NCBI RefSeq assembly: GCF_002257665.1
Contig: NZ_MQWB01000001.1
Span: forward strand, 742,502-806,501
Direction: 5' to 3'
DNA from: Rubricoccus marinus
Lineage (GTDB): Bacteria; Bacteroidota; Rhodothermia; Rhodothermales; Rubricoccaceae
DNA: 64,000 bases
The number at the start of each line of letters is the position of its first letter. Position 1 is the stretch's first letter. Both the position numbers and the translations under genes were made by a program. The notes under the pieces are model-generated. The model was not told where the DNA came from. It worked only from the letters and a program-made list of their open reading frames with translations, and made no database searches. This document shows positions 4,144 through 31,082 of the stretch, piece by piece.

Positions 4144-5493
4144 ATGTTTTTGCGCTCCCGTTTCGTCTGTGTTCTCCTCCTCGCCCTCGCGGCCTCTGGC
4201 GCATCGGCGCAGCCGTTCGAGTCGTCTGACCTCCCGCTCGTGATCGTGGACGTAGGGCGAGAGATCCCAAACGAGCCGAAGGTGGAGGGCCGGATGCGGA
4301 TCGTGGACAACGGCCCGGGTGAGCGCAACCGGCCGGACGATGCCGCGACGGGCTACGACGGCCCGATTGGGATTGAGCTTCGGGGCGCGACCTCGCGCAC
4401 GAAGTACGCCAAAAAGCAGTACGCCGTGGAGACCCGCGACGAAGCGGGCGCCAACCTCAACGTGCCGCTGCTCGGCTTCCCGGAGGAGAACGACTGGATC
4501 CTGCACGCGCCGTACTCGGACAAGACGCTCATGCGCAACGTGCTCGCCTACCGCCTCGCGCGCGAGATGGGCCAGTACGCCAGCCGCACGCGCTACGTGG
4601 AGCTGATCCTCGACGGAGAGTACCAGGGCGTCTACGTGCTCATGGAAAAGATCAAGCGCGACGACGGGCGCGTGGACATCGCGACGCTCAACCCCGACGA
4701 GACCTCTGGCGACGACCTCACGGGCGGCTACATCGTCAAGATCGACAAGCGCTCCGGCGGCGAGCGCGGCGGGTGGCTCTCGCCGGTCCGCGCCCCGGGC
4801 TGGGGTGGCTCTGGTCGCCCGCTCTACCAGTTCCACGACCCGAAGCCGTCCGAGATCGCGCCCGAGCAAGCGGCCTACATCGAGAACTGGATCTCGGACT
4901 TTGAGCGCGCGCTCATGGCCGAGACCATCGAGGACCCCGCCAGAGGCTACCCGGCCTTTATTGACCTCGCCTCGTTCGTGGACTACTTCCTGCTCGTGGA
5001 GCTCAGCAAAAACGTAGACGGCTACCGCTTGAGCGCCTACTTCCACAAGGACAAAGACTCCAATGGCGGCCTCTTGCGCGCCGGTCCGGTCTGGGACGTC
5101 AACATCGGCTTCGGCAACGCGGACTACTACAGCGGTGCCGATCCCGAGGGCTGGCAGGTGCTGATGACGCAGGCCGAGGACCCGTTCCAGATTCCGGCGT
5201 GGTGGCCTCGCCTGGTCCAGACCGAGAGTTTCCAGAGCGCGGCTCGCGCCCGGTGGGCAGAACTCCGTGCCGGGCCTCTGGCGACGGATTCGCTCGTGGC
5301 GCGCGTGGATGGCATCGCGGACCAGCTGGACGAGGCGCAGGCGCGCAACTTCCAGCGCTGGCCAGTCCTGGGCCGCCGGATCTGGCCCAACGAGTTTGTC
5401 GGCGAGACGTACGCCGAGGAGGTGGACTTCCTCCGATCCTGGCTCCGCCAGAGGCTCGCGTGGATGGACGGCGAGCTCCTCGCGGAGCCCTAG
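4144..5493 (+). CDS. CotH-type secreted protein kinase (first paralogue)
   Basis: The protein has 449 residues. A signal peptide (MFLRSRFVCVLLLALAASGA, cleaved near SAQ) precedes a CotH kinase domain: IGIELRGATS, KKQYAVETRD, ENDWILHAPYSDKTLMRN, EYQGVYVLMEKIKRD, GGYIVKIDK and PVWDVNIGFGNADYY. CotH proteins are atypical secreted protein kinases, known from Bacillus spore coat phosphorylation. It is a close relative of the CotH at 26099 but ends at the kinase domain and has no T9SS tail. Its stop codon overlaps that of the convergent small gene (CTAG at 5490-5493). Its target protein is unknown. Confidence 0.88.
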   Translation: MFLRSRFVCVLLLALAASGASAQPFESSDLPLVIVDVGREIPNEPKVEGRMRIVDNGPGERNRPDDAATGYDGPIGIELRGATSRTKYAKKQYAVETRDEAGANLNVPLLGFPEENDWILHAPYSDKTLMRNVLAYRLAREMGQYASRTRYVELILDGEYQGVYVLMEKIKRDDGRVDIATLNPDETSGDDLTGGYIVKIDKRSGGERGGWLSPVRAPGWGGSGRPLYQFHDPKPSEIAPEQAAYIENWISDFERALMAETIEDPARGYPAFIDLASFVDYFLLVELSKNVDGYRLSAYFHKDKDSNGGLLRAGPVWDVNIGFGNADYYSGADPEGWQVLMTQAEDPFQIPAWWPRLVQTESFQSAARARWAELRAGPLATDSLVARVDGIADQLDEAQARNFQRWPVLGRRIWPNEFVGETYAEEVDFLRSWLRQRLAWMDGELLAEP

Positions 5494-26098: not shown

Positions 26099-27748
26099 AT
26101 GGCGCACCGTGTTTCCGTTCGTGAACGCCTCTGGCGCGGGTTGGGCGTGCTCGCGGTTTCTGCACTGATCGCCGGGCCTCTGGCGGGGCAAACGCTTACG
26201 TCCTCCAACCTGCCGATCGTGCTGATCGAGACGGACGAACCGATCCCGGACGAGCCGAAGGTGCCGGGGCGGATGCGCGTGATCGACAACGGCGGCGGGC
26301 GGCGGAACGCCGTCACGGACCCGCCGACGGGCTACGACGGCCACATCGGCATCGAAGTGCGCGGGGCGACCTCGCAGCTGTTCCCCAAGAAGCAGTACGC
26401 GCTCGAAACGCGCGACGCCGACGGCGAGAACCGCAACGTGCCGCTTCTCGGGATGCCGTCTGAGAACGACTGGATCTTGCACGCGCCATACACCGACAAA
26501 ACGCTGGTCCGCAACGCCGTCGCGTACCGGCTGGTGCGGCGGATGGGCCGGTACGCGAGCCGGACGCGGTTCTGCGAGGTCATCGTCAACGGGGAGTACC
26601 AGGGTGTGTACCTCCTCCTGGAGAAGATCAAGCGCGACGGGGACCGCGTGGACATCGCGACGCTCAACCCCGACGAGACCTCTGGCGACGACCTCACGGG
26701 CGGCTACATCGTCAAGGTGGACAAGGCCGCGGGCGGCGAGGTCGGCGGGTGGGACTCGCCGCTGCCGCCGCCGTACCCGTTCGGCCGGCGGGTGCGCTGG
26801 GAGTACCACGAGCCCTCGCCAGAGGAGATCGCGCCGGAGCAGGCGGCCTACATCGAGCGCACCATCACCGCTTTTGAGCAGGCCGTCGCCACGGAGAACT
26901 ACGACGACCCCGCCAGAGGCTTCCTGCCGCTGGTGGACCTGGGCTCGTTCGTGGACGTCGTGATCCTCAACGAGGTGACCAAGAACATCGACGGCTACCG
27001 CGCGAGCACGTACCTCCACAAAGACAAAGACAGCGTGGACGGGCGGCTCAAGGCCGGCCCCGTCTGGGACTTCAACCTCGCGCTGGGCAACGCGAGCTTC
27101 GGTGGCGGTGCGGATCACCGCGGTTTCCAGTTCGACTGGGACGACCGCGCCGACGGCATCCCGATCCCGTTCTGGTGGGCGCGCATGGCCCGGAGCGAGC
27201 CGTTCCAGGCCGCGATGAAGACGCGCTGGACCGAGCTCCGCGCCGGGCCTCTGGCGCCAGACTCGCTGGACGCCCTCGTGGACGAGACCGTGGGCGAGAT
27301 CGCGGAGGCGAGCGCCCGCAACTTCGAGCGGTGGCCGACGGTGGGGAAGCCGGTGTGGGGCAACGCGTACGTGGGGGAGACCTACGCCGAGGACGTGCGC
27401 TACCTCAAGGCGTTCACGCGCCGCCGTGCGGCGTGGATGGACGGCGCCCTCGCCAGAGGCCTCGGCGCGCCCGGGCCGGGCCCGGCGGTCGTGCTCTCGC
27501 GCCCGTGGCCCTCGCCGGCCTCTGGCGACGCGCAGGTCACGCTCACGACGGGCTCTGCCGACCGCATCCGCCTGGACCTTGTGGACGCGCAGGGCCGCCT
27601 CGTGCGGACCGTGTTCGAGGGGCCAGTGGATGGCGGCACCCGGACGGTCACCGTGCAGACGGCGGGCCTCGCGACGGGGACATACTTCCTCGTCGCCAGC
27701 GGAGCGCTCGGCACGTTCTCGCGTCCACTCGTCGTCGTGCGCCGGTAG
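26099..27748 (+). CDS. CotH-type kinase with C-terminal T9SS sorting domain (second paralogue)
   Basis: The protein has 549 residues from ATG 26099 (MAHRVSVRERLWRGLGV). The signal peptide ends near LAGQ. The CotH kinase domain (about residues 35-440) follows the paralogue at 4144 closely: RMRVIDNGGG, GHIGIEVRGATS, KKQYALETRD, ENDWILHAPYTDKTLVRN, YQGVYLLLEKIKRD, GGYIVKVDK and PVWDFNLALGN. The last 80 or so residues (SRPWPSPASGDAQVTL, then RIRLDLVDAQGRLVRTV and GLATGTYFLVASG) are a type A T9SS sorting domain, so this copy should be exported to the outer surface. It leads a series with the adaptor, VTC and DUF4956 genes. Confidence 0.9.
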   Translation: MAHRVSVRERLWRGLGVLAVSALIAGPLAGQTLTSSNLPIVLIETDEPIPDEPKVPGRMRVIDNGGGRRNAVTDPPTGYDGHIGIEVRGATSQLFPKKQYALETRDADGENRNVPLLGMPSENDWILHAPYTDKTLVRNAVAYRLVRRMGRYASRTRFCEVIVNGEYQGVYLLLEKIKRDGDRVDIATLNPDETSGDDLTGGYIVKVDKAAGGEVGGWDSPLPPPYPFGRRVRWEYHEPSPEEIAPEQAAYIERTITAFEQAVATENYDDPARGFLPLVDLGSFVDVVILNEVTKNIDGYRASTYLHKDKDSVDGRLKAGPVWDFNLALGNASFGGGADHRGFQFDWDDRADGIPIPFWWARMARSEPFQAAMKTRWTELRAGPLAPDSLDALVDETVGEIAEASARNFERWPTVGKPVWGNAYVGETYAEDVRYLKAFTRRRAAWMDGALARGLGAPGPGPAVVLSRPWPSPASGDAQVTLTTGSADRIRLDLVDAQGRLVRTVFEGPVDGGTRTVTVQTAGLATGTYFLVASGALGTFSRPLVVVRR

Positions 27749-27799
27749 CGCCAGCGCGCCGTGTCAGAACGCCGGGGAACGCCCTTCGTAACGGTTCCC

Positions 27800-27807
27800 T
27801 AACTTGG
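27800..27807 (+). promoter_or_regulatory. Possible Bacteroidota-type -7 element before the adaptor gene
   Basis: TAACTTGG resembles the Bacteroidota -7 consensus TAnnTTTG with one mismatch, 60 bases before the adaptor start. No clear -33 TTG is at the right distance, so this is weak. Confidence 0.2.
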
Positions 27808-27866
27808 GGCTCCGGCGGATTGCCCCGCGTTTTCCCCGCCAGAGGCCCGCTTTCCGTCCCGACCGC

Positions 27867-29003
27867 ATGAGATCCCGCTCCGTCCCCGGCTTCCGCCAGC
27901 GCGGCCGCGCCGGCGTGCTCGTCGCCAGCGGTCTTGCGGTGGCGGCGATCGCGCTCGTGTTCGCGCCGGTGGAGTTGCCCGACCGGGTCGAGGGCGTCGG
28001 GCGCGTGCTCCCGGCGCAGGAGTGGGTGCTCGTGCGGACAGCCTCTGGCGCCGTGACCGCCACGCTTCGCGACCACCGCACGGGCGCCGTCTCCACGACG
28101 TTTGCCGCCGAGCCCGCGCGCGGCGACGCCGTCCGGTTCGAGCTGGGCCCTGCGGCGTCGCAAGAGGCCGTCGAGGCGGGGGAGAACGTGGGGATGCTGG
28201 CCTCTGGCGAGGCGGCGCTGCGGCTGGCGGCCGTCCGCGGGGAAATCGAGCAGGCGGAGGCCGAGTTGCGGCGGACCGGGGCGGGCGCCAAGCCAGAAGT
28301 GGTGGAGGCAGCACGGCGCGGCGTGCGCGAGGCGGAGGCCGAGAGGGGACAGGCGGAGGCCGAGGTGGCGCGCGCCAAGGCGACAGCCGAGCGCCAGAGG
28401 AACCTCTTTGCAGACGGCCTGACCTCGGCGCAGGCGCTGGATGACGCCGAGGCGGCGGTGCGGCTCGCCGAGGCCCGGCGCGCGAGTGCCCAGGCGCAGA
28501 GGGCGACGGCCGAGGCGCGCGTGCAGGTGGCGACTTCGGGCGAGAGGCCAGAGGAAGCCGGCGTGGTGCGCGCCCGGATCGGGGCGCTGGAGCGCGAGGC
28601 GCGTTCGCTGCTGGAGCGAGAGCAGATGGGCACGCTCGTCTCGCCCATCTCGGGCCGCGTCGGCCGCGTGTTCTCTCCCGACACGCTCTTGCTCGTGGCC
28701 GACACCTCGGCGTACCACGTGCTCCTGCCGGTCCGCTGGACCGACCGCGACCGCGTGCGCGCCGGCCGCACGGTGGTGCTCAAGACGGCCTCTGGCGAGG
28801 CGCCGCCCCTGGCGCGGATCGTGGACGTGCGCGAGGCCGCCGCGCCGCGCGCCGGTCAGGCGTACCTCGTCGCGACCGCCGAGGTCGTCTCGGGCGCCGA
28901 GCACTTGGTTCCAGGCCTGCTCGTGGCGTGTGCTGTGGAGTCCGCGCCGATGACGCCGTTGCAGCACGTGCAACGCGCGCTCCGCGACCTCTTCCGCTGG
29001 TAA
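27867..29003 (+). CDS. HlyD-like membrane fusion (periplasmic adaptor) protein
   Basis: The protein has 378 residues from ATG 27867 (MRSRSVPGFRQRGRAGVL). One membrane helix at about 15-35 (GVLVASGLAVAAIALVF) is followed by a lipoyl-like half (VEGVGRVLPAQEWVLV), a coiled-coil hairpin at about 110-240 rich in Ala/Glu/Arg, the second lipoyl half (LVSPISGRVGRVFSPD) and a beta-barrel region (VLLPVRWTDRDRVRAGRTVVL). Adaptors normally join an inner-membrane transporter to an outer-membrane channel; neither is nearby. It lies 118 bases after CotH and seven bases before the VTC gene, so it belongs with them, probably linking this surface system across the periplasm. Confidence 0.75.
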   Translation: MRSRSVPGFRQRGRAGVLVASGLAVAAIALVFAPVELPDRVEGVGRVLPAQEWVLVRTASGAVTATLRDHRTGAVSTTFAAEPARGDAVRFELGPAASQEAVEAGENVGMLASGEAALRLAAVRGEIEQAEAELRRTGAGAKPEVVEAARRGVREAEAERGQAEAEVARAKATAERQRNLFADGLTSAQALDDAEAAVRLAEARRASAQAQRATAEARVQVATSGERPEEAGVVRARIGALEREARSLLEREQMGTLVSPISGRVGRVFSPDTLLLVADTSAYHVLLPVRWTDRDRVRAGRTVVLKTASGEAPPLARIVDVREAAAPRAGQAYLVATAEVVSGAEHLVPGLLVACAVESAPMTPLQHVQRALRDLFRW

Positions 29004-29010
29004 GCCCCGC

Positions 29011-29766
29011 GTGCGCCGCGAACTGAAATACCTCGTCCGCGAGGCCGACCGCCACCGCCTCGCGGCCCGCATCGCGCCCTACGTGCAGGCCGACGCGCAC
29101 GCCTCGGACCGCGCCTCTGGCGCCAGAGGCTACACCGTGCGGAGCGTGTACTTCGACACGCCCGGCCTGCGCGACTGGGCCGAGAAGGAGTCCGGCGACG
29201 AGATCCGCCGCAAGGTCCGCGTGCGCGCCTACGACGCGCCGGGCTCGGGCCCGGTCTTTCTGGAGGTGAAGCGGAAGGAGAACTCGGCGGTCTGGAAAGA
29301 CCGCGCGCGGATGTCGGCACCAGAGGCCGCGGCGCTGCTCGCGGGCGCCCCGCTGAGTGCGGCGCCAGAGGCCTCGCGCGAGGCGGCCGAGCGGTTCCTG
29401 TTCCGCCTCCGCGCCGAGCACCGCCACCCCGTCCTCCTCGTCGCGTACGACCGCGAGCCGCACGTCGGCCGCGTGGACCCGTCGCTGCGCATCACGTTCG
29501 ACCGCCGCTTGCGCGTGTCCGCCTTCCCCCGCCTCGGCCCCGACCTCGCCGGGCTCTACGCCGAGCGCCAGAGGCCGCTCCTGGCGGGCCACTTCATCCT
29601 GGAGGTCAAGTACGACCGCGCGTTTCCGTCCTGGATGCGCGCCGTGACGGCCTCGCTGGGGCTCCGCCAGCAGGCGCTCTCCAAGTACGGGCTCGGCCTG
29701 GAAGCCGAAGTTGAAGCCGCACCGTGGCGCTTCGGCGCGCCGGCCGTCCGCGCCCTCTCGCGCTAA
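29011..29766 (+). CDS. VTC-domain protein (polyphosphate polymerase-like)
   Basis: The protein has 251 residues with a GTG start at 29011 (MRRELKYLVREADRHRL), seven bases after the adaptor stop. The beta-tunnel pattern of VTC4-type polymerases is visible: RRELKYLV, YTVRSVYFDTPGL, RRKVRVRAYD, PVFLEVKRKENSAVWKDR, LLVAYDREPH, RITFDRRLRV, HFILEVKYDRAFPSWM and LRQQALSKYG. In yeast VTC4 this fold makes polyphosphate from ATP. Bacterial copies next to DUF4956 and CotH genes are common, but their product is not settled. No signal peptide or membrane helix is seen, so the domain is probably cytoplasmic. Confidence 0.9.
   Translation: MRRELKYLVREADRHRLAARIAPYVQADAHASDRASGARGYTVRSVYFDTPGLRDWAEKESGDEIRRKVRVRAYDAPGSGPVFLEVKRKENSAVWKDRARMSAPEAAALLAGAPLSAAPEASREAAERFLFRLRAEHRHPVLLVAYDREPHVGRVDPSLRITFDRRLRVSAFPRLGPDLAGLYAERQRPLLAGHFILEVKYDRAFPSWMRAVTASLGLRQQALSKYGLGLEAEVEAAPWRFGAPAVRALSR
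29113..29130. repeat. Inverted motif pair inside the VTC coding sequence
   Basis: GCCTCTGGCGCCAGAGGC is read in frame as ASGARG, in a loop between the first strand pair and the YTVRSVYFD strand of the VTC protein. This shows that full palindromes are tolerated inside genes. Confidence 0.85.
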
Positions 29767-29791
29767 CCTCCCACCGTTCCCGCCAGAGGCC

Positions 29792-30499
29792 ATGCCCTTC
29801 GATCTCAACGACCCGTTCTCGACGTTGCCTCTGGCGACGAGTCAGATCGTGGCGAACCTCTTGGTGGCGCTCTTGTGCGGCCTGGCCATCTCGCTGATCT
29901 ACCGGTGGTCCTACCGCGGCACGAGCTACTCGACAACGTTCGTGGCCTCGCTGGTGACCCTCGCGATGATCACGTCCATCGTCATCATGGCGATCGGCAA
30001 CAACCTCGCGCGGGCATTCGGCCTCGTCGGCGCGATGTCCATTATCCGCTTCCGGACGGCGGTCAAGGACACGCAGGACCTGGTGTTCATCTTCCTCGTG
30101 CTCGCCATCGGGCTGGCCGCTGGCGTCGGCTTCCACCGCCTCGCCATCCTCGCCACGGTCTTTGTCGGCGCGACGCTGTGGCTGCTCGGGCGCTCCGGCT
30201 TCGGCGCCTCTCGCAAGCTGGAGTACTTGGTCGAGATCGTGGCCTCTAGCGAGTCGGCCTCTGGCGAGGACAGCGGCACCGCGGCGCCAGAGGCCGCGCC
30301 GTGGGACGCCGTGCTCGCGCGCTACGCGCGGCGGCACCGCCTGCTCCACGCCCGCTCCGGCGAGGGCGGGCGCCTGGACCTCGGCTTTCTCGTCACGCTG
30401 CGGCGCACGGAGGACGCGCCCGCGCTAACGGACGCACTCGGCCGCACGGACCGCGTGGAGGAGGTCGCGCTCTACTACGACGAGGAACGCCCGCTGTAG
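29792..30499 (+). CDS. DUF4956 membrane protein
   Basis: The protein has 235 residues from ATG 29792 (MPFDLNDPFSTLPLATS). Residues about 15-135 hold four hydrophobic segments with the DUF4956 signature between them (GLVGAMSIIRFRTAVKDTQD), and VFIFLVLAIGLAAGVG follows. A linker coded by motif copies (ASSESASGEDSG, then AAPEAAP) leads to a cytoplasmic C-terminal domain of about 75 residues. It lies 25 bases after VTC. DUF4956 and VTC genes are recurrent neighbours, so it is the membrane partner of the VTC enzyme by inference. Confidence 0.9.
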   Translation: MPFDLNDPFSTLPLATSQIVANLLVALLCGLAISLIYRWSYRGTSYSTTFVASLVTLAMITSIVIMAIGNNLARAFGLVGAMSIIRFRTAVKDTQDLVFIFLVLAIGLAAGVGFHRLAILATVFVGATLWLLGRSGFGASRKLEYLVEIVASSESASGEDSGTAAPEAAPWDAVLARYARRHRLLHARSGEGGRLDLGFLVTLRRTEDAPALTDALGRTDRVEEVALYYDEERPL

Positions 30500-30602: not shown

Positions 30603-31082
30603 ATGCTCTGGCGAATAACTACCATAGCGCTGGCCCTCGGAGTCGTGGTCGCGTTTTACCTCTGGTACTGCCGGGCCTTCTGGGACGACTACTACTCCGA
30701 TAGGCAGAAGGACTACTACGACTTCCATCCTGCGGTCTCTCTTCCACCGGACAGCGCGCTCGGCCAGGAGGATCTCCTCCGGTACACGTGGACCCGCACG
30801 ATCCTCGAGCCCCAGCACGGTCAATGGATCAACGAGACTGAACTGCGCTTCCCAAACGACTCGACGATGGAAGTCACGGTCAGACCTGGATACGTCCAGG
30901 ACAACTATTTGCTATACCCAGTCTTCAGGAGACTGATCGTGTCGGACCCTGAGATGCGCGAGACCTACGCGCTCGACAAAGAGCGGTTGGTGTTCCCAAG
31001 CAGATGGAAAGACGGAGGGCCCGATTCGATAGCAGTCGAGTTGAACCGCAGGGCCCTTACGATTGATTACTCATTTCTGTGA
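30603..31082 (+). CDS. Unrecognised membrane-anchored protein
   Basis: I do not recognise this 159-residue protein. The ATG at 30603 starts MLWRITTIALALGVVVAFYL, a single N-terminal membrane helix, followed by an aromatic and acidic stretch (WDDYYSDRQKDYYDFHP) and a globular region of about 100 residues. The base composition is visibly more AT-rich than its neighbours and the iterated motif is absent from the coding sequence, which suggests a different history, perhaps recent acquisition. It could be an immunity-type or assay-specific small protein, but nothing in the sequence supports a function. Confidence 0.6.
   Translation: MLWRITTIALALGVVVAFYLWYCRAFWDDYYSDRQKDYYDFHPAVSLPPDSALGQEDLLRYTWTRTILEPQHGQWINETELRFPNDSTMEVTVRPGYVQDNYLLYPVFRRLIVSDPEMRETYALDKERLVFPSRWKDGGPDSIAVELNRRALTIDYSFL

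Follow-up and report, generated by a model that had tools for sequence, protein, structure and literature searches.

The bacterium Rubricoccus marinus carries, within a stretch of 64,000 nucleotides of its genome (contig NZ_MQWB01000001.1, positions 742,502 to 806,501; hereafter the window), a row of four genes that encode a CotH-family kinase, a periplasmic adaptor, a VTC-domain enzyme and a DUF4956 membrane protein. All four open reading frames lie on the + strand with intergenic gaps of 118, 7 and 25 bases, just as the first-pass annotation of this DNA had placed them. The CotH-family kinase (26099..27748, +; 549 residues; Pfam CotH E=1.2e-58, 199.6 bits vs. a cut-off of 23.8) bears a C-terminal sorting domain of type A of the type IX secretion system (T9SS; TIGR04183). 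Next comes the adaptor of the HlyD/membrane fusion protein fold (27867..29003, +; 378 residues), which was recognised from its AlphaFold2 model and a Foldseek search. It is followed by a Vtc4-like VTC-domain triphosphate tunnel enzyme with a GTG start (29011..29766, +; 251 residues; Pfam VTC E=7.8e-35) and by the DUF4956 membrane protein (29792..30499, +; 235 residues; Pfam DUF4956 E=2.3e-14). CotH, VTC and DUF4956 exceed their Pfam cut-offs, whereas the adaptor is weak in both Pfam and NCBIfam (Pfam HlyD_3 E=0.009, below cut-off). Comparison with other genomes reveals that the adaptor, VTC and DUF4956 genes constitute a conserved unit, to which CotH is a frequent but optional neighbour.

Conservation of a three-gene unit

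The VTC family was searched in 196 genomes of the class and was found in 48 of them at 51 places, seven of which are cut by contig ends and three of which were not fetched, leaving 41 resolvable. The adaptor was likewise searched in 198 genomes of the phylum, and the surroundings of the matches were annotated with profiles built from the window proteins. The adaptor, whose presence at orthologous loci the first-pass annotation had left to a neighbourhood check, adjoins VTC-DUF4956 at 36 of the 41 resolvable VTC places in the class. The five places that lack it despite having room belong to three genomes of one genus, to G126 and to the third copy in G051, and the VTCs found there are all divergent. 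In the reverse direction, adaptor matches led to 17 loci, one with an E-value of 6.5e-10 and the other 16 below 1e-14; DUF4956 stands beside the adaptor in all of them, and VTC is also present in 16. Altogether, VTC accompanies DUF4956 in 58 of 61 adaptor-linked loci. CotH is found within 3 kb in 31 of these 61 loci and directly adjacent in 23. Since a second genome of the same genus (G135, locus L056) keeps the three genes, its adaptor being 61% identical, with no CotH upstream, CotH is regarded as optional. The operon of four genes that had been proposed therefore stands for the adaptor, VTC and DUF4956, with CotH as an optional member. Of the gene families clustered around the 41 loci, none except CotH and the members of the module recurs in more than five. 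The immediate neighbours of the adaptor are VTC, DUF4956 and CotH, and no cognate ABC, MFS or RND transporter recurs alongside it in these loci.

Adaptor, VTC and DUF4956 correlate strongly in their protein distances (Mantel r 0.57-0.86, a level reached in 0 of 2000 permutations), although this correlation partly reflects shared species history. Because the three genes stay next to each other at dozens of loci in several phyla, the arrangement is not due to chance. A fortuitous neighbourhood or an annotation artefact, to which the weak Pfam score of the adaptor alone might point, has a negligible probability, as the adjacency is kept across several phyla and in two gene orders with correlated divergence, and chance adjacency was rejected accordingly. 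From the linkage and the trees described below, it is nearly certain that adaptor, VTC and DUF4956 form one functional module. An apparent fusion of adaptor and VTC in L052 was also rejected, as the two lie in different frames.

Predicted properties of the three components

The AlphaFold2 model of the adaptor (predicted local distance difference test, pLDDT, 87) comprises a membrane anchor (helix 14-31), a barrel-sandwich domain, a beta-barrel and a long hairpin, whose two arms, helices 114-182 and 188-254, are both interrupted by a break. Its best solved fold relatives are MacA and EmrA (Foldseek E 1e-12), and HlyD was also matched. By its predicted fold, the window protein is thus a full periplasmic adaptor, and it belongs to a monophyletic family of its own that is linked to DUF4956. 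It carries the sequence R176-x3-L180-x6-S187 (28392..28427, +; RQRNLFADGLTS), which model helices 143-182 and 188-224 place at the hairpin tip. This RLS motif is the TolC-binding site of MacA, AcrA and MexA, and takes the form RLT in HlyD (PMC3391258). Among the 61 linked adaptors it is present in 45, against 8.5 expected from shuffled sequences. Compared with its relatives, the window adaptor has a seven-residue insertion in both hairpin helices, and such paired insertions are as expected if the hairpin were lengthened by one matched heptad.

The VTC family profile matches yeast Vtc4 at 1e-22. Residues K6, R70, R72, K87 and K96 of the window VTC align with Vtc4 K200, R264, R266, K281 and K294, and R148, E198, K200, S224 and K225 with R361, E426, K428, S457 and K458. 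These Vtc4-matched residues of the catalytic tunnel are invariant or near-invariant in 25 VTC sequences, and Vtc4 is inactivated by mutating R264, R266 and E426 (PMC9911596). Tripolyphosphatases carry glutamates in place of the basic exit residues of Vtc4 (PMC4641920), while the positions of Vtc4 R196, K294 and K428 are basic here. Overall, the sequence features fit a polymerase better than a tripolyphosphatase, and polymerase activity is likely but not certain, because three exit positions are basic and one holds a glutamate. The SPX and VTC transmembrane domains are absent from the 251-residue protein, which consists of the tunnel domain only. Additionally, PPK1 is encoded elsewhere in the R. 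marinus genome, so that ordinary polyphosphate in the cytosol does not require VTC.

For DUF4956, the AlphaFold2 model (pLDDT 86) has five N-terminal helices, four or five of them membrane-spanning, and a C-terminal ferredoxin/ACT-like domain. The latter matches ACT and ribosomal S6-like folds, with the C-terminal domain of Mycobacterium tuberculosis MgtC among the matches, and a sequence search of the PDB gave only a weak C-terminal match. Alignments locate a basic patch of R86, R88 and K92 where helix 3 ends and beyond it (30047..30067, +). Both arginines are invariant in two sets of diverse DUF4956 sequences (17 and 42), and K92 is near-invariant in the larger of these. We propose DUF4956 as the inner-membrane partner of the adaptor in place of the usual transporter. 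The adaptor had earlier been described as lacking any transporter, and indeed none of the ABC, MFS or RND type lies alongside it, but the arrangement is better read as DUF4956 filling the place of that partner.

Distribution, TolC partners and repeated recruitment

A collection scan with a DUF4956 alignment yielded 80 named loci. The adaptor accompanies VTC-DUF4956 in Zixibacteria, Melioribacteraceae, Ignavibacteria, Neomarinimicrobiota, KSB1, Chlorobi and metagenome-assembled genomes of Bacteroidales. It is absent from the scanned VTC-DUF4956 loci of Bacillota, Proteobacteria, Campylobacterota, Planctomycetes, Poribacteria, Chloroflexi, Actinomycetes and Aminicenantes. Plasmid-borne Gram-positive loci hold VTC-DUF4956, with CotH in some of them, and no adaptor. 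Furthermore, typical Bacteroidia possess a separate canonical DUF4956 clade beside VTC (L168-L197), with no adaptor within about 1.5 kb of VTC-DUF4956 in 30 of 30 loci. Since other phyla and this canonical clade have VTC-DUF4956 without it, the adaptor is an addition of the Fibrobacteres-Chlorobi-Bacteroidetes (FCB) group and not a general need of two-membrane cells. The idea that the adaptor is present merely due to two membranes was rejected, as Proteobacteria, Planctomycetes and one Bacteroidia clade do without it.

An outer-membrane partner is found beside the module in some genomes. At L104 (Cytophagaceae), adaptor, VTC, DUF4956 and TolC form one run in which the DUF4956 and TolC genes overlap (OEP 6e-39); the same set minus VTC is present at L042 and in the Hymenobacter record L080. 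Several OEP/TolC genes occur elsewhere in the R. marinus genome. It is probable that the module reaches the outer membrane through TolC. An alternative holds that VTC-DUF4956 feeds polyphosphate or phosphate to the periplasm only, the adaptor being a scaffold or regulator that engages no TolC. Such a role would agree with the pairs that lack an adaptor in Gram-positives, Proteobacteria and a Bacteroidia clade, and with the lack of TolC beside the window module; nevertheless, the frequency of the RLS motif among linked adaptors and the presence of TolC within the operon at three loci make purely periplasmic delivery quite unlikely. As a separate observation, a Porin_O_P gene lies next to DUF4956 at the deltaproteobacterial locus L132, a single weak case.

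The pairing of DUF4956 with an adaptor has arisen more than once. On a tree of 155 DUF4956 proteins, adaptor linkage requires 7 changes, compared with 49 in shuffles. One DUF4956 clade, with 49 members and a support of 98, has the adaptor upstream of VTC; another, with 16 members and a support of 100, has it downstream of DUF4956. In the adaptor tree, the upstream adaptors group in a single clade, as do the downstream ones (support 99 each); the two are kept apart by ordinary efflux adaptors, which join the upstream set (96). Because both trees separate the upstream and downstream sets, DUF4956 has been paired with an adaptor independently at least twice. A third pairing, DUF4956 followed by an adaptor with no VTC beside, is seen in L203 and L211, whose adaptors group with the downstream set. 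At these two loci (L203 6476-9425 and L211 4213-7311), the row consists of DUF4956, an HlyD-type adaptor of a different kind and a third protein, which has 397-416 residues and looks secreted. The third protein is possibly a TolC-like component; for both versions (397 and 416 residues) Pfam was silent and a profile alignment to TolC was not significant.

Surface kinases and proposed export of polyphosphate

The T9SS tail ascribed to the window kinase in the first-pass annotation is marginal by score, as the type A domain at about residues 471-546 reaches 23.2 bits in TIGR04183 against a cut-off of 23 and stays below that of Pfam (22.4 vs. 27). It is nevertheless supported, because 19 of the 22 module-adjacent CotH proteins of adaptor-linked loci have the sorting domain and the R. 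marinus genome encodes SprA (SprA_N 3e-37). For the same reasons, the linked kinases in general are predicted to be placed at the surface. Candidate active-site residues of the window CotH are D298 (NIDGYR) and D324 (VWDFN), chosen by inspection; its alignment to the solved spore coat CotH spans only 55 residues. A second CotH of the same subfamily, with 449 residues and no T9SS tail, is encoded at 4144-5493 of the window; the genome has four CotH genes in all. In Proteobacteria and Aminicenantes, CotH is fused to a right-handed beta-helix at L107, L113 and L117, directly upstream of or near VTC-DUF4956, and TPR proteins lie further upstream in L107, L111 and L113.

These components may be combined into a pathway as follows. 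VTC would polymerise phosphate from ATP at the cytoplasmic face, and DUF4956 would hold VTC at the inner membrane and pass the polyanion through, as the eukaryotic VTC complex does with its transmembrane part. The cargo would be a phosphate polymer, most likely polyphosphate. In the FCB group, the added HlyD-type adaptor would dock a TolC-type channel, bringing the chain to the cell surface and not just to the periplasm; at the surface, T9SS-exported CotH kinases would be frequent clients or users of the product. Complex formation, the translocon role of DUF4956, polyphosphate as cargo and its export are what we infer from the arrangement of the genes. In its full form, this reading describes a class of trans-envelope exporters in which VTC and an MgtC-like DUF4956 replace the ABC, MFS or RND partner and push polyphosphate via adaptor and TolC, and in which surface CotH uses the polymer instead of ATP; we assign it a probability of about 0.3. 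As for its parts, the odds that the module exports polyphosphate are even, while the use of the exported polymer by CotH as phosphate donor is doubtful. A pathway from cytoplasm to surface had been suggested before; the conserved adaptor, its docking motif, TolC in some operons and T9SS tails on most linked CotHs support it, but the adaptor linkage is not general to VTC-DUF4956.

The proposed exporter has parallels in two known kinds of system. In yeast, VTC ties the making of polyphosphate in the cytosol to its passage across the membrane (PMC9911596), and the eukaryotic complex (Vtc1/Vtc3/Vtc4 of the yeast vacuole) shares with the module the catalytic residues of the tunnel polymerase and a small multi-helix membrane part. 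However, the module is without SPX, its membrane part is the separate, unrelated-looking DUF4956, and a periplasmic adaptor comes in addition, joined at some loci by TolC; its target would be outside the cell. With MacAB-TolC, EmrAB-TolC and HlyBD-TolC it has in common the adaptor fold, the membrane anchor, the RLS docking motif and, where TolC lies in the operon, the TolC partner. Unlike these tripartite pumps and type I secretion systems, it has DUF4956 in place of an ABC, MFS or RND component, and the polymerase would supply both cargo and drive. PPK1, an unrelated enzyme, would share polyphosphate synthesis with VTC if the latter does so.

Several observations weigh against export of polyphosphate by this route. 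A glutamate (E4) occupies the position of Vtc4 T198 in the window VTC and most of its relatives, leaving an exit path that is not fully Vtc4-like. No TolC gene adjoins the module in the window. In the fold search with the DUF4956 model, the membrane part matched no solved transporter, and the protein shows a likeness, below the Pfam cut-off (22.3 bits vs. 31.4; E=1.8e-4), to MgtC, itself no established exporter. This weak similarity is no proof of transport, and DUF4956 is at most a putative path for the polyanion. The main counterpoint is the combination of adaptor, DUF4956 and TolC without VTC in L080 and in G321, the complete genome of L042, which has no VTC anywhere; the conduit may carry another cargo. 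Efflux of a small molecule or ion has to be considered here, with MgtC-like DUF4956, adaptor and TolC exporting a small solute and VTC only sensing or regulating through triphosphates. The ACT-like C-terminal domain of DUF4956 and its likeness to MgtC would suit such a function as well. Nevertheless, VTC stands beside DUF4956 in nearly all adaptor-linked loci and keeps its catalytic residues, unlike a degenerate sensor, which makes this explanation improbable.

A further counterpoint concerns polysaccharides. In streptococci, clostridia and bifidobacteria, pel operons have genes for CotH, a poly-phosphate polymerase and DUF4956 as direct neighbours (PMC7112168), and VTC, DUF4956 and CotH were correctly taken from the start as recurrent neighbours. 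These Gram-positive pel accessory genes belong to the same three families but differ in their pel context, with no adaptor reported. Together with the CotH-beta-helix fusions of Proteobacteria, they suggest a polysaccharide link and, more widely, a connection with surface polymers. VTC-DUF4956 and CotH could accordingly phosphorylate or regulate a surface polysaccharide, which adaptor and TolC would export or scaffold in place of free polyphosphate. Glycosyltransferase or polysaccharide genes are indeed found beside VTC-DUF4956 in L081, L082 and L130. No recurrent polysaccharide gene family, however, surrounds the 41 adaptor-linked loci, and none lies within the window module, so that a phosphate-modified exopolysaccharide is considered unlikely. 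With respect to earlier work, the trio of CotH, polymerase and DUF4956 is already known from pel neighbourhoods, and the adaptor/TolC linkage appears to be new. No description of an adaptor or TolC linked to VTC-DUF4956 was found in the searchable literature, subscription papers and preprints being outside its scope, and DUF4956 is seldom mentioned there. There is a real chance that the combination of a tripartite adaptor with VTC is a new class.

The export of polyphosphate proposed above touches two open questions, namely by what route bacteria bring polyphosphate to the outside of the cell and which phosphate donor secreted kinases could draw on where ATP is lacking. The three-gene unit offers a concrete, deletable gene set for both. 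If true, the proposal adds an inner-membrane partner other than ABC, MFS or RND to the tripartite exporters.

Two further features of the window were noted. Directly 3' of the module, a protein of 159 residues without Pfam match is encoded at 30603-31082. Moreover, a dispersed palindromic repeat (CGCCAGAGGC / GCCTCTGGCG) occurs throughout the window, for example at 26128, 28042, 28789, 29114 and 30509, and runs through coding sequence. The sequence CCTCTGGCG is present 267 times in the 64 kb, compared with about 2 expected. There are 517 copies of the 18-base palindrome CGCCAGAGGCCTCTGGCG in the genome, but only 3 in the same-genus genome and 0-2 in other relatives. The repeat resembles the HIP1 repeat of cyanobacteria.

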